NCBI GenBank assembly: GCA_903923205.1
Contig: CAIXXC010000363.1
Span: 1 to 38,021 of the forward strand
DNA length: 38,021 nucleotides
Origin: an uncultured Rhodospirillales bacterium
Lineage (GTDB): Bacteria > Pseudomonadota > Alphaproteobacteria > ATCC43930 > CGMCC-115725
Direction of reading: 5' to 3'
A model generated the notes under the pieces. That model ran no database searches, had not been told where the DNA came from, and saw only the letters and a program-made list of their open reading frames with translations. The position numbers and the translations under genes are program-made. Of the stretch, positions 1-3,742 are shown in pieces (position 1 is the stretch's first letter; each line of letters starts with the position of its first letter).

Positions 1-67
1 CAGGAACGCCGCGCTCGGCCAACAATTTCTCGATCTGCTCTGCTTCGAGCTGTTGCACGATATTCAC
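1..67 (-). CDS. rplS: 50S ribosomal protein L19, N-terminal fragment
   Basis: Ribosomal protein L19 sits at the interface of the two ribosomal subunits. Only the first 22 codons lie in the window; the rest runs off the left edge. The reading begins with GTG at 65-67 and gives an N-terminus starting (V)[14 protein letters not shown], which is how alphaproteobacterial L19 proteins usually begin. The start overlaps the trmD stop as GTGA, and a GAGG stretch just upstream can serve as ribosome binding site. The order rpsP-rimM-trmD-rplS is the classic operon order, which supports the call although the fragment is short. Confidence 0.85.
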
Positions 68-828
68 TTCTGCACCTCTTCTGCATGCGTGCCGGCGCCT
101 TCGCCGGGCACGGTTCTTGTGATGATGTCGCGCGACCCCTGGCGATCCCGATACCGGGACCATAGGTCAGGACGTCGCGCCTTGGTGACGGCTTCCGCTT
201 CGGCCCGCCGCCAGGCCCTGATCTTCTGATGGTGGCCGGACAACAACACGTCCGGCACCACCCGCCCCTGCCACTCTTGCGGACGAGTGTAGTGGGGGTA
301 TTCCAACAATCCGGCCTCGAAGCTTTCTTCCTCGAGGGTCGCAGGCGCGCCCAAAACGCCAGGCAGGAGCCTGATCACGGCATCGAGCAGCGCGATCGCC
401 GCCGGCTCGCCGCCGGACAACACGAAATCGCCGAGGCTTACTTCGTCGAGTTCCCAGGCGTCGATCACCCGTTGGTCGATCCCTTCGAACCGACCGCACA
501 AGAGAACCACACCCGGCTCGCGAGAAAGCTCCCGCACCATCGCCTGATCCAGCACCCTGCCGCGAGGGCTCAGATAAATCCGACGACCCGGCTTGCCGAC
601 CTGCGCCGAAAGTGCCGCATCGAGCACATCCGGGCGCATGACCATCCCAGGTCCACCGCCGAAGCCGGAATCATCAACCGTGCGGTGGCGATCCTCGGCG
701 AAGTCACGAATATCAATGGTCTCGCAGGACCAAAGCCCGTCCTTCAATGCCTTACCCGCAAGCGACTGGCCAAGCGGACCCGGCAGCATTTCCGGAAAGA
801 GCGTCAGGATGGTTGCAGCCCAAGTCAT
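64..828 (-). CDS. trmD: tRNA (guanine-N1)-methyltransferase TrmD
   Basis: TrmD methylates N1 of G37 next to the anticodon, using S-adenosylmethionine, and so prevents +1 frameshifting. The protein is 254 residues, the usual length. It opens with the family pattern [10 protein letters not shown], and has [13 protein letters not shown] near residue 60 and the SAM-binding trefoil-knot segment around [12 protein letters not shown] and [14 protein letters not shown] (about 110-145). The start overlaps the rimM stop by four bases (ATGA, 825-828) and its stop overlaps the rplS start, so the three are translationally coupled. Nothing appears to be missing. Confidence 0.97.
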
Positions 829-1403
829 TGGCTGATCTCCATCAGGGCCTTTTCCTGAGCATCGCGAGACGATGGCGGCTCCGGCTTTTCGAGCAATCCG
901 ACCGGCGGATCGATCACCAACCGCCCACCAGGAACGTCAATGACCGGGACCGCCGCCTTCGTGAACGGGACCATCACGGTCTCGCGGTCTCCGGTCGCAA
1001 TTTCCAGGGACTGTCCGGCACCGAAATCATGCAGCGCCGAAACCGTGCCCAGAACCTGCCCATCGACCATTTCCGCCCGCAAACCGATCAGATCGGCATG
1101 ATAGAACTCCTCTTCCTCGGCGGGTGGGAGCTGATCCCGATCGACGAAGAGTTGCAGTCCTTTCAGGGCCTCAGCGGCGTTGCGGTCGCCCACGCCGGAA
1201 AGTTCAGCGATGATCGCCCCCTTGACCGCGCCGGTAATGCGCAAGGTAAAGCGGCGTGCCCCTGCCTCGTCAGACAGCGGGCCATAGGCACCGATATCCG
1301 CGGGCTCGGCCGTGAAGCTCTTGAGGCGAACAGCGCCACGGATCCCATGGGGTCCGGTGACGATACCGACGCAGAGCTTTTTCGACGCGGGGCAGGCGAT
1401 CAT
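825..1403 (-). CDS. rimM: 16S rRNA processing protein RimM
   Basis: RimM helps mature the 3' domain of 16S rRNA and binds ribosomal protein S19 in the 30S head. The protein is 192 residues. The N-terminal RimM barrel is seen in [20 protein letters not shown] (about 12-31), with the characteristic GxHG(I/L)xG pattern. The C-terminal PRC-barrel half holds [12 protein letters not shown] and [13 protein letters not shown], followed by [20 protein letters not shown]. It lies between rpsP and trmD as in most bacteria. The ATG is 30 bases after the rpsP stop. Confidence 0.95.
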
Positions 1404-1433: not shown

Positions 1434-1784
1434 TTAGGCTTCGACCGCGACCTTGGCAGCGCGCTCCTTGGCGCGCTCAATGGCCTTTTGGCCCGGAGCC
1501 GACTGCTTCGGGGTCTCGCGACGTTCCGGCTTGGCGATCAGCGAGGCGTCGCCGAGGAAACGGGCGACCCGGTCCGTCGGCTGCGCGCCAACCGACAGCC
1601 AGTGGGTGATGCGTTCGGTCTTGAGGGTCAGGCGTTCCGGATGGTCCTTTTCGACCATCGGATTGTAGGTGCCAACCCGCTCGATAAAGCGGCCATCGCG
1701 CGGGCTGCGCGCGTCGGAGATGACGATGCTGTAAAACGGGCGCTTCTTGGCGCCGCCACGGGACAGACGAATCTTCAATGACAT
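1434..1784 (-). CDS. rpsP: 30S ribosomal protein S16
   Basis: S16 is an assembly protein of the 30S subunit. The 116-residue product has the conserved start [20 protein letters not shown] and the core [10 protein letters not shown]. After about residue 80 comes a Lys/Ala/Glu-rich tail, a common extension in alphaproteobacterial S16. An AAGGA ribosome binding site stands about eight bases before the ATG. The gene follows ffh by 39 bases, with no obvious terminator between them, so ffh-rpsP-rimM-trmD-rplS probably forms one transcript. Confidence 0.97.
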
Positions 1785-1823: not shown

Positions 1824-3194
1824 TTAACGCTGAAACGGGTTGCCCATGCCGGAAAGCATTCCACCAAGGCCACCACGCATCAATCCCTTCTTCCCGACCT
1901 TCTGGACGTGCTTCATCATCGCCGCCATATCCTGGTGCTGTTTGAGAAGCTTGTTCACATCCTGGACCGAGGTCCCTGAACCGACGGCGATACGGCGCCG
2001 GCGCGAGGCATTCATAATCTTCGGGTTCTTCCGCTCCGCCTTGGTCATGGACGAGATAATCGCCTCCTGACGCTTGATGATGCGATCGTCGATATTGGCT
2101 TCGTTCAGCTGCTTCTTGATCTTCCCGATGCCCGGCAGCATCCCCATCACACCGCTCAAACCGCCCATCTTGCGGAGTTGGCGCAACTGCATGGCCATAT
2201 CGTCGAGATCGAAATTCCCTTTTTCCATCTTGGCCGCGAGCTTTTCAGCTTCGGCCTGATCGACCGTCTCAGCCGCCTTCTCGACAAGACTGACGACGTC
2301 ACCCATGCCAAGAATACGACCGGCGATACGGTCGGGATGGAAAGTTTCGAGCGCATCAAGCTTTTCGCCCATGCCCAGCAGTTTGATCGGCTTTCCGGTC
2401 ACCGCGCGCATGGACAGCGCCGCGCCGCCGCGGGAATCGCCGTCGACGCGGGTCAGGACGATCCCGGTGATGCCGATGCGATCGTTGAAACTCTTGGCAA
2501 CGTTGATGGCATCCTGGCCGGTCATGGCATCGGCGACGAGGAGGGTTTCATGCGGCTTGGCAAGGTCGCGGACACCAGCGACCTCGAACATCAGACCCTC
2601 GTCGATATGAAGACGACCGGCAGTATCGAGCAGCAGGACATCGAAGCCGCCGAGCGTCGCGGCGTTGATCGCGCGCTGCGTGATCGCCAGCGGCTGCTCG
2701 CCCTTGACGATCGGCAGTGTCTCGACCTCGATCTGCTTGCCGAGAATTTGCAGCTGTTCCTGCGCCGCCGGGCGGTTGACGTCGAGCGAGGCCATCATGA
2801 CCTTGCGCTTTTCCCGGTTCTTGAAGCGCAGCGCAATCTTCGCCGTCGTTGTCGTCTTACCGGAGCCCTGCAGGCCAACCATGAGATAGACCACAGGGGG
2901 CACGGCTTGCAGCGACAGGTCGGTCGCACCAGCGCCAAGCACCTCGACAAGATGATCGTGGACGATCTTCACAACCATCTGCCCGGGACTGACCGAGCGG
3001 ATAACATCCTGACCGACAGCCTTCTCACGCACCGCGTTGATGAAATCCTTCACCACCGTCAGGGCAACATCAGCCTCAAGCAGCGCGATCCGAACTTCTC
3101 GGAGCGCCGCCGTGACGTCAGCCTCCGACAGCGCCCCGCGTTTGCGCAGGCGGTCGAAGACGTCACCGAGTCGGCTGGTGAGACTATCGAACAT
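1824..3194 (-). CDS. ffh: Signal recognition particle protein Ffh (SRP54)
   Basis: Ffh binds the SRP RNA and hydrophobic signal sequences emerging from the ribosome, and brings the complex to FtsY at the membrane. The 456-residue protein has the N domain (1-95), the GTPase G domain with P-loop GLQGSGKTT (107-115), DTAGR (190-194) and the SRP-GTPase signature TRVDGDSRGGAAL (248-260), then a methionine-rich M domain (about 295-456) that binds RNA and signal peptide. An Arg replaces the usual Lys in the TKxD motif, a mild variant. The start at 3194 follows a structured leader (see 3226-3314). Only about 32 bases separate the leader's T-run from the ATG, too few for a separate promoter. Confidence 0.98.
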   Translation of the reverse strand: MFDSLTSRLGDVFDRLRKRGALSEADVTAALREVRIALLEADVALTVVKDFINAVREKAVGQDVIRSVSPGQMVVKIVHDHLVEVLGAGATDLSLQAVPPVVYLMVGLQGSGKTTTTAKIALRFKNREKRKVMMASLDVNRPAAQEQLQILGKQIEVETLPIVKGEQPLAITQRAINAATLGGFDVLLLDTAGRLHIDEGLMFEVAGVRDLAKPHETLLVADAMTGQDAINVAKSFNDRIGITGIVLTRVDGDSRGGAALSMRAVTGKPIKLLGMGEKLDALETFHPDRIAGRILGMGDVVSLVEKAAETVDQAEAEKLAAKMEKGNFDLDDMAMQLRQLRKMGGLSGVMGMLPGIGKIKKQLNEANIDDRIIKRQEAIISSMTKAERKNPKIMNASRRRRIAVGSGTSVQDVNKLLKQHQDMAAMMKHVQKVGKKGLMRGGLGGMLSGMGNPFQR

Positions 3195-3225
3195 CGTGTA
3201 AGCGACCTCTCCTCAAGGCGTGCGG

Positions 3226-3314
3226 CACAAAACAAAAAGCGCCAGTGCGCGACACTCGCGGACTGGCGGAGCTTCCCTGGTGGGAAGCAAGACCGGGCAG
3301 AATTTCTTCTGCGA
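3226..3314 (-). ncRNA. Three-hairpin structured RNA upstream of ffh (leader/attenuator or small RNA)
   Basis: Reading the minus strand from about 3314, three perfect inverted repeats follow one another. The first is GCAGAA with a GAAA loop and TTCTGC (3297-3312). The second is GCTTCCC with a 4-base loop and GGGAAGC (3271-3288). The third is a longer hairpin with outer stem ACTGGCG/CGCCAGT and inner CGCG/CGCG (3240-3268), followed by TTTTTGTTTT. A good promoter lies just upstream. The transcript would be about 85-90 nt. It lacks the SRP RNA domain IV signature, so it is not an obvious 4.5S RNA. It could be an ffh attenuator or an independent RNA. I believe a conserved motif named after ffh is catalogued in alphaproteobacteria but cannot verify it here. 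Confidence 0.65.
3228..3268 (-). terminator. Intrinsic terminator just before ffh
   Basis: On the minus strand, a 7-bp outer stem (3240-3246 with 3262-3268), a mismatch, a CGCG/CGCG inner stem and a 5-base loop are followed by C, TTTTT (3238-3234), G, TTTT (3232-3229). This is a textbook rho-independent terminator. It sits 33 bases before the ffh start codon and could end the upstream gene at 3395-3742, the short structured RNA, or act as an ffh attenuator. Confidence 0.75.
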
Positions 3315-3320
3315 AGGGGA

Positions 3321-3350
3321 GTGATACGCCAACCCCGAACGGCGTGTCAA
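3321..3350 (-). promoter_or_regulatory. Sigma-70-like promoter for the ffh leader
   Basis: The minus strand carries TTGACA (3350-3345, a perfect -35) and TATCAC (3326-3321, -10) separated by 18 bases. The predicted start is near 3314, exactly where the first hairpin of the structured RNA begins. It lies between the stop of the upstream gene (3395) and ffh. Confidence 0.6.
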
Positions 3351-3394: not shown

Positions 3395-3742
3395 TCAGTG
3401 AGCCGGATCGAAGCTCGGCGACGCTTCCCGCTGTAGGCGACGATCAAGCCCGTTGAGGACTCTGCCGCAGGCGACAATCAGGGCCGGTTCGCGGAGGCGC
3501 AGGGCAAAACGCTGAATATCCAGGAGATCGCGCCGGATACCACGGTCAAGTTGCGCGCGCTCCCACGCGAGATCCGACGATACCGCGACGGCGGCATCGC
3601 TGGCACAACGTCGCATCACCGGATCAATCTCGCTCAGGAGTTCCTTGGGGAGACGGGTGGCGATTTCAGCCATCACGCGGGTGACATCTGTCACTTCGGC
3701 GCAAACATGCGCTCTCTCCGTCGTTGTTGACGTGCCGCTCAT
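3395..3742 (-). CDS. Hypothetical protein, 115 residues
   Basis: I do not recognise this protein. It is 115 residues, soluble, without a signal peptide or membrane segment. It looks mainly alpha-helical, with charged helices such as LPKELLSEIDPVMRR, WERAQLDRGIRRDLLDIQ and LNGLDRRLQREAS. Two or three cysteines are scattered. A GGAAGGGA ribosome binding site precedes the ATG at 3742 at proper spacing, and codon third positions are GC-rich like the neighbours, so the reading frame is probably real. It is transcribed towards ffh, and the terminator at 3228-3268 could end its message. Confidence 0.65.
   Translation of the reverse strand: MSGTSTTTERAHVCAEVTDVTRVMAEIATRLPKELLSEIDPVMRRCASDAAVAVSSDLAWERAQLDRGIRRDLLDIQRFALRLREPALIVACGRVLNGLDRRLQREASPSFDPAH

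Follow-up and report, generated by a model that had tools for sequence, protein, structure and literature searches.

The ffh gene of this uncultured Rhodospirillales bacterium is preceded by a structured leader, composed of a promoter, three hairpins (H1, H2 and H3) and a U-rich tail (positions 3350-3229 on the minus strand of the 38,021-nucleotide stretch analysed, hereafter the window), which is almost certainly a conserved cis element of ffh. It is an ancient leader element, common to most Alphaproteobacteria. Its sequence and fold identify H3 as a divergent homologue of Rfam family RF01793, the “ffh motif” of Meyer 2009, and the conserved tail that follows H3 appears to be better matched by a pause signal shading into termination than by an intrinsic terminator.

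Architecture of the ffh leader

The features of the leader and of the downstream genes are listed in Table 1. The TTGACA/TATCAC promoter with 18-nt spacing that had been proposed in the initial annotation is present and is conserved in relatives, with the start of the leader RNA expected near position 3314. A scan of the sequence for sigma70 promoters did not list it, since the rule of that scan requires a T as the last base of the -10 element. Judged by conservation, the predicted promoter is far above chance: 77 of 82 genomes of the class contain TTGAC at a distance of 45-125 nt on the 5' side of H3, as compared to 7.6 +/- 2.5 in shuffled DNA. A 115-codon open frame on the same strand (window 3395-3742, minus strand), with no Pfam match, ends about 45 nt 5' of the promoter.

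Table 1. Positions of the leader features and of the genes of the presumed ffh operon in the window
Feature	Position	Strand	Description
Promoter	3321-3350	-	-35 TTGACA at 3350-3345, 18-nt spacer, -10 TATCAC at 3326-3321
H1	3297-3312	-	6 bp, GAAA loop; GCAGAA-GAAA-TTCTGC; expected 5' end of the RNA
H2	3271-3288	-	7 bp, ACCA loop; GCTTCCC-ACCA-GGGAAGC; 2 nt 5' of H3
H3	3240-3268	-	7+5 bp, GTG loop; CGCCAGT-C-CGCGA-GTG-TCGCG-C-ACTGGCG; RF01793 homologue
Tail, CTTTTTGTTTTG	3228-3239	-	T-rich patch at -10 to -6, U-1 at 3229, G+1 at 3228; proposed pause/partial termination site
ffh ribosome-binding site, GAGGAGAGG	3206-3214	-	Purine-rich; likely, from sequence
ffh (SRP54)	1824-3194	-	SRP54 domains; gene downstream of the leader
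rpsP	1434-1784	-	3' of ffh, presumed operon
rimM	825-1403	-	Presumed ffh operon
trmD	64-828	-	Presumed ffh operon

The minimum free-energy structure of the leader consists of exactly H1, H2 and H3 (-39.8 kcal/mol, z -3.76), and none of 200 shuffled sequences was as stable. All three stems described in the initial annotation are found in this fold, with a correction to the third, which is formed by 7+5 bp around a C.C mismatch (C3261 opposite C3247) and not by 7+4 bp. The end of H3 lies 45 nt from the ffh ATG, and the U-rich tail stops 34 nt short of it. Within the presumed ffh-rpsP-rimM-trmD operon, the intergenic gaps are 39 nt or less.

Conservation and covariation of the hairpins

Upstream regions of ffh were gathered from 30 genomes of the same family and from 98 genomes across the class. 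Using a simple hairpin descriptor, H3 was found before ffh in 82 of the 98 class genomes, which form the set referred to below. The descriptor served only for the collection of sequences; significance was taken from a covariance model built from H3 and the tail (R1; match threshold E <= 0.01), from pair counts and from shuffles.

The initial annotation had staked its three stems on covariation among relatives, and in H3 such covariation is present. In an alignment of H3 (A1; 94 sequences, 12 pairs), the 12 pairs show 98.1% standard pairing over 93 distinct sequences, and double-sided changes occur in 11 of them. The double-changed cells number 134; shuffles gave 25.8, and sliding of the pairing partner gave no more than 27. 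Some positions inside H3 hardly vary: the mismatched C on the 3' side is invariant across A1, the opposing C is nearly so, and G12 and C19 of the alignment are also near-invariant.

The two upstream hairpins are conserved more loosely than H3. At the position of H1, many family members carry a hairpin with a rewritten sequence (GCTTCC..GGAAGC type). A hairpin directly 5' of H3 occurs in 59% of the class genomes versus 27% in shuffles, and in relatives it is often GCCTC-CGAG-GAGGC, alongside rewritten equivalents. The stretch from the start site to H3 is more stable than its shuffled counterparts (mean z of -1.43 in 70 genomes; -0.07 in the control). With RNAalifold, the leaders of the family yielded H3 together with 3 bp of H2, but not H1, the sequence of which is too variable for alignment. 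In a DNA search of 61 genomes, the conserved part was the H3 block. The promoter-H1-H2-H3 layout is thus common in shape, whereas H3 and the tail are common in sequence. Complementarity between the H2 loop and the tail, as in a pseudoknot, was barely above that of permuted pairs (9.69 versus 9.26, with 24 of 500 as high), and complementarity to the 50 nt 5' of H3 (13.29 versus 12.63, with 0 of 200 as high) is confounded by genome composition.

Relationship to RF01793 and to 4.5S RNA

A search of the whole window against Rfam at the gathering cut-off gave no match, because the homologue falls below that cut-off. When the leader region (271 bases) was searched alone, the only match was to RF01793 (“ffh sRNA”); it spans the entire model and scores 27.5 bits (E 0.0021; gathering cut-off, 35 bits). 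The catalogued alphaproteobacterial motif associated with ffh, to which the initial annotation had referred, thus exists, and the window matches it below the curated score. Like RF01793, the element in the window is located directly 5' of ffh on the same strand, and H3 is the same bulged hairpin with two conserved cytosines and a covarying stem. Unlike RF01793, which has a 2x2 internal loop and 4 bp, H3 of the window has a 1x1 C.C internal loop and a 5-bp inner stem. Upstream of H3, the RF01793 model covers no more than the 3' portion of the H2 region, which it leaves unpaired, and downstream it stops after 8 nt of the tail; it lacks the promoter, H1, most of H2 and the UU/G step described below. 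H2, the tail and the 1x1 variant of the internal loop could be added to the Rfam seed and structure.

The ffh motif was originally found in Pelagibacter, Rhodobacterales, Sphingomonadales and Rhizobiales, whereas Rhodospirillales and Caulobacterales were reported to lack it; the same work offered no mechanism for it and remarked that Ffh had not been described as regulated, either in transcription or in translation (Meyer 2009, PMC2704228). A literature search under the name “ffh sRNA” found nothing.

The leader is distinct from the small bacterial SRP RNA (4.5S RNA, RF00169), in agreement with the remark in the initial annotation that it was not an obvious 4.5S RNA. RF00169 has no match at the leader locus up to an E value of 10, and the single RF00169 match of the genome, its 4.5S RNA gene, lies on another contig (G000:C436:2200-2295, 57.5 bits). 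The only common point between the two RNAs is that the protein partner of 4.5S RNA is encoded next to the leader. We also considered that the leader might mimic 4.5S RNA, on account of a 9-base likeness seen by eye (CGAGUUUCG); R1 has no match at the 4.5S locus, and the likeness was taken as chance.

Distribution among the Alphaproteobacteria and linkage to ffh

R1 identified the element in 185 of 289 alphaproteobacterial genomes, roughly 100 of which had not been used in building the model. RF01793 matched 88 of the 289, 58 of them over its cut-off, and thus misses more than half of the copies found by the better model. Loci that exceed the RF01793 cut-off and are also matched by R1 include those of Ferrovibrio (L027), Parvibaculum (L036 and L037) and Bauldia (L038 and L039). 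The element appears to be restricted to the Alphaproteobacteria, as R1 gave no match in about 182 genomes from other classes of the phylum. H3 and the tail of the window score 61.1 bits with R1. The window contains no further strong copy, and the element is nearly always present in single copy.

Among the named carriers are Nitrospirillum, Azospirillum sp. B4 and Ferrovibrio; in Nitrospirillum amazonense, the element scores 55.1 bits. Nitrospirillum and Ferrovibrio are placed in the Rhodospirillales by NCBI taxonomy, and the nearest named relatives of the window organism are “Rhodospirillales” MAGs. These carriers widen the range given for the ffh motif in 2009; they do not set the window element apart from it.

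The association with ffh is very tight. Of 111 R1 matches that could be compared with listed ffh positions, 110 are located directly 5' of ffh, on the same strand and 2-106 nt away, which bears out the view of the leader as a cis element of the ffh operon. The lone checkable exception is a second copy in one genome (G047:C63:3990-4033, plus strand, 58.2 bits) near the end of a 4.1-kb contig; it probably derives from a contaminating genome, since the assembly is a MAG with 7% contamination, and its ffh would lie past the contig edge. A possible exception to the strict linkage observed here is MH_s5, an RF01793 match reported on plasmid b of Mesorhizobium huakuii 7653R, apparently away from the chromosomal ffh (PMC5596092).

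The element is absent before ffh in about a dozen lineages (G060, G069, G075, G076, G086, G108, G165, G166, G172, G220 and G258). Its loss may accompany break-up of the ffh operon, because in two of these genomes ffh and rpsP are separated, on different contigs in G060 and by 5.5 kb in G258. Several Nitrospirillum loci (among L029-L035, Nitrospirillum and Azospirillum sp. B4, with about 85 nt from H3 to ffh) contain an open frame of about 8 codons, ATG GGC CTG ... GAC TAG, whose ATG is positioned right after the tail and before the ffh start. This frame is possibly a leader peptide, or a product of chance.

The tail downstream of H3

In the window, H3 is followed at once by a U-run, in the manner of an intrinsic terminator: CTTTTTGTTTT. 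The longer tail reads CTTTTTGTTTTGTGC (3239-3225, minus strand). The initial annotation had regarded H3 as an intrinsic terminator on this account, and the U-run is indeed found in the lineage of the window; as a general description of the element, the assignment fails. Only 17 of the 82 class genomes have at least five consecutive T within the first 12 bases of the tail, and it is a different tail that is conserved.

When the tails are anchored on the hairpin, two blocks appear. T reaches 56-74% at +3 to +5 and 50% at +6, against a background of 22%, and there is almost no A at +6 to +8. T then rises to 91% at +10 and 87% at +11, followed by G at about 65% at +13 and +14. The second block corresponds to a UU/G step located 11-12 nt past H3 (G at +12 or +13), which was found in 65 of the 82 class genomes, as compared to a mean of 7.5 and a maximum of 16 in shuffled tails. 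In the window, the step lies 11 nt from the hairpin. With the UU/G step as the anchor instead, T makes up 44-72% at -10 to -6, and the profile shows U from -3 to -1 and G from +1 to +3. This choice of anchor dictates the step, so that the independent columns are the T patch, U-3, G+2 and G+3. The same two blocks are seen in the hairpin-anchored profile, which is free of that anchoring.

Positions -11 to -6 read CTTTTT in the window, and the class consensus is looser than TTNTTT. The T patch is absent in some relatives, for example CACACGGCGTTTGG and CGCAACCGCTTTGG, and the ffh tails do not conserve the -10 G that belongs to the elemental pause consensus. Among relatives, 17 to 121 nt separate the stem from the start codon, whereas the position of the tail relative to the hairpin is constant; it is therefore the hairpin, and not the ribosome site, to which the tail is tied. 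In 13 terminator-like hairpins taken from 400 kb of the same genomes, T is found at +1 to +7 and the second block is missing, although these cases are few and were chosen for T at +1 to +6. From these profiles, the tail is not that of a plain terminator, and a true U-run is lineage-specific.

NusG and known pause sites

The arrangement of the tail resembles that of hairpin-stabilized, NusG-dependent pauses such as that of the B. subtilis trp leader. The hallmarks of pausing include a duplex 11-12 nt upstream of the RNA 3' end and the step Y-1 G+1, and NusG-dependent pauses carry in addition a T-rich non-template motif, -11 TTNTTT -6, which is read by residues N81 and T82 of NusG; E. coli NusG has S and V at those two residues and is non-functional for such pausing (PMC12288461). 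Like these pauses (PMC12288461), the ffh leader has a hairpin 11-12 nt before a U/G step, a T-rich patch at about -10 to -6, a location in a 5' leader and an NT-type NusG in the same organism. The pause of the ffh leader, by contrast, is a predicted one, its T patch is looser than TTNTTT, and the leader is not known to contain a sensor or effector.

The NusG of the window organism (L328) contains KNTAKVTGF, with the N-T pair as in B. subtilis. Among 30 alphaproteobacterial NusGs, 16 have NT, 7 have DT and 3 others have HT, KT or ST, so that T occupies the second place in 26. The B. subtilis and E. coli NusGs used as references in this comparison had been verified at the published dipeptides only. 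B. subtilis NusG aids termination at suboptimal terminators, and NT and HT NusGs occur in Proteobacteria (PMC8060035). In the literature found, NusG-dependent pausing has not been demonstrated in Alphaproteobacteria.

A proposed mechanism and its alternatives

The best reading, although we rate it at slightly less than even odds, is that H3 and its tail form a cis-acting signal for pausing and partial termination. RNA synthesis would start near 3314 from a sigma70-type promoter, and H1 and H2 would fold as the leader RNA emerges. H3 would then have formed in the exit channel by the time the RNA 3' end has reached U3229, which is 11 nt beyond the hairpin base and is followed by G. The T-rich non-template strand would hold RNA polymerase at this point, probably together with NusG and NusA, and so produce a pause. 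In the lineage of the window, which has the tract TTTTTGTTTT, some of the complexes would probably release a leader RNA of about 86 nt, while the others would continue into ffh. Pausing and release would set the amount of SRP protein, or let some other factor set it. H3 and the tail would thus represent a pause site that has turned into a partial terminator in some lineages, including this one. This reading is suggested by the spacing and the UU/G step of the tail, which fit the pause hallmarks, by the N-T pair of the NusG and by the aid that NusG gives at suboptimal terminators; the DT dipeptide in 7 of the 30 NusGs of the class, the looseness of the T patch and its absence in some relatives, and the lack of a conserved -10 G count against it. 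The attenuator tuning Ffh levels that the initial annotation had envisaged remains the best bet in this broad sense, with a pause-like tail in place of a general intrinsic terminator.

The same sequence could be explained by an ordinary intrinsic terminator at H3, which would yield a discrete, trans-acting small RNA of about 86 nt while ffh is expressed by read-through. This is the small RNA of about 88 nt considered in the initial annotation, and we regard it as unlikely. The strong GC-rich stem followed by TTTTTGTTTT would suit it, Rfam files RF01793 as an sRNA, and the leader is among the small RNAs in Bartonella RNA-seq and in the marine metatranscriptomes cited by Meyer 2009 (PMC2704228, PMC7717549). 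Such listing needs termination or processing, for which pausing alone is insufficient. There is also a precedent in UpsM, an sRNA-like RNA produced by partial termination in the 5' leader of a housekeeping operon (dcw) of the alphaproteobacterium Rhodobacter sphaeroides (PMC5089854). UpsM differs, however, in its operon, in its 268-nt leader with a Rho-independent terminator and in being reported only in Rhodobacteraceae (PMC5089854). The scarcity of U-runs across the class speaks against a separate trans-acting RNA, as do the conserved bases at +10 to +14, which lie past the release point of a terminator, and the lack of the second block at the 13 terminator-like sites, few as these are. Nor would an RNA acting in trans need to stay beside ffh, as practically all checkable strong matches do. 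Although the leader is listed in RNA-seq studies, a separate trans-acting RNA has little support in the sequence.

Somewhat less probable still is that H3 and the tail are a protein site, for Ffh, ribosomal protein S16, Hfq or a ribonuclease, which controls the translation or stability of ffh mRNA. Near-invariant residues within a structure, here the C.C mismatch, G12 and C19, are typical of protein sites, and RNA-binding proteins, of which one is encoded downstream by rpsP, often have autogenous leaders. The element, however, is unlike the Ffh-binding part of 4.5S RNA (also Meyer 2009, PMC2704228), R1 has no match at the 4.5S locus, and the variable distance to the start codon is unfavourable for direct occlusion of the ribosome site. 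Control by S16 was considered and is not supported: neither ffh nor rpsP carries the element in G060, where they are on different contigs, and in G216 and G311, in which about 1.6 kb lies between the two genes, the element is found with ffh. Ffh and S16 are accordingly not favoured as leader-binding proteins by the tests made. Hairpins that merely shield the 5' end of a housekeeping mRNA, with no regulatory role, would account for the way in which H1 and H2 keep only their shape; for the leader as a whole this is highly improbable, since in some 80 families H3 and the tail have retained both a fixed spacing and the identity of particular bases, and a stabilizer needs neither.

Significance

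The motif has been catalogued since 2009; its range, its anatomy and its pause-like tail exceed the record in the literature found. With the promoter, the three hairpins, the pause-like tail and the breadth of its distribution, an Rfam entry that had been an orphan becomes a specific and testable proposal. More tentatively than for the signal in the window itself, we suggest that the ffh motif may act throughout the class as a hairpin pause site of the NusG type, which in particular lineages has drifted to a partial terminator. On this view, it would have been fixed before one gene only, the one encoding the SRP protein, from the ancestor of most Alphaproteobacteria onwards, as a dedicated transcriptional brake on the SRP operon. 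If this is true, factor-guided pausing would constitute a fixed control point on protein targeting across a whole bacterial class.
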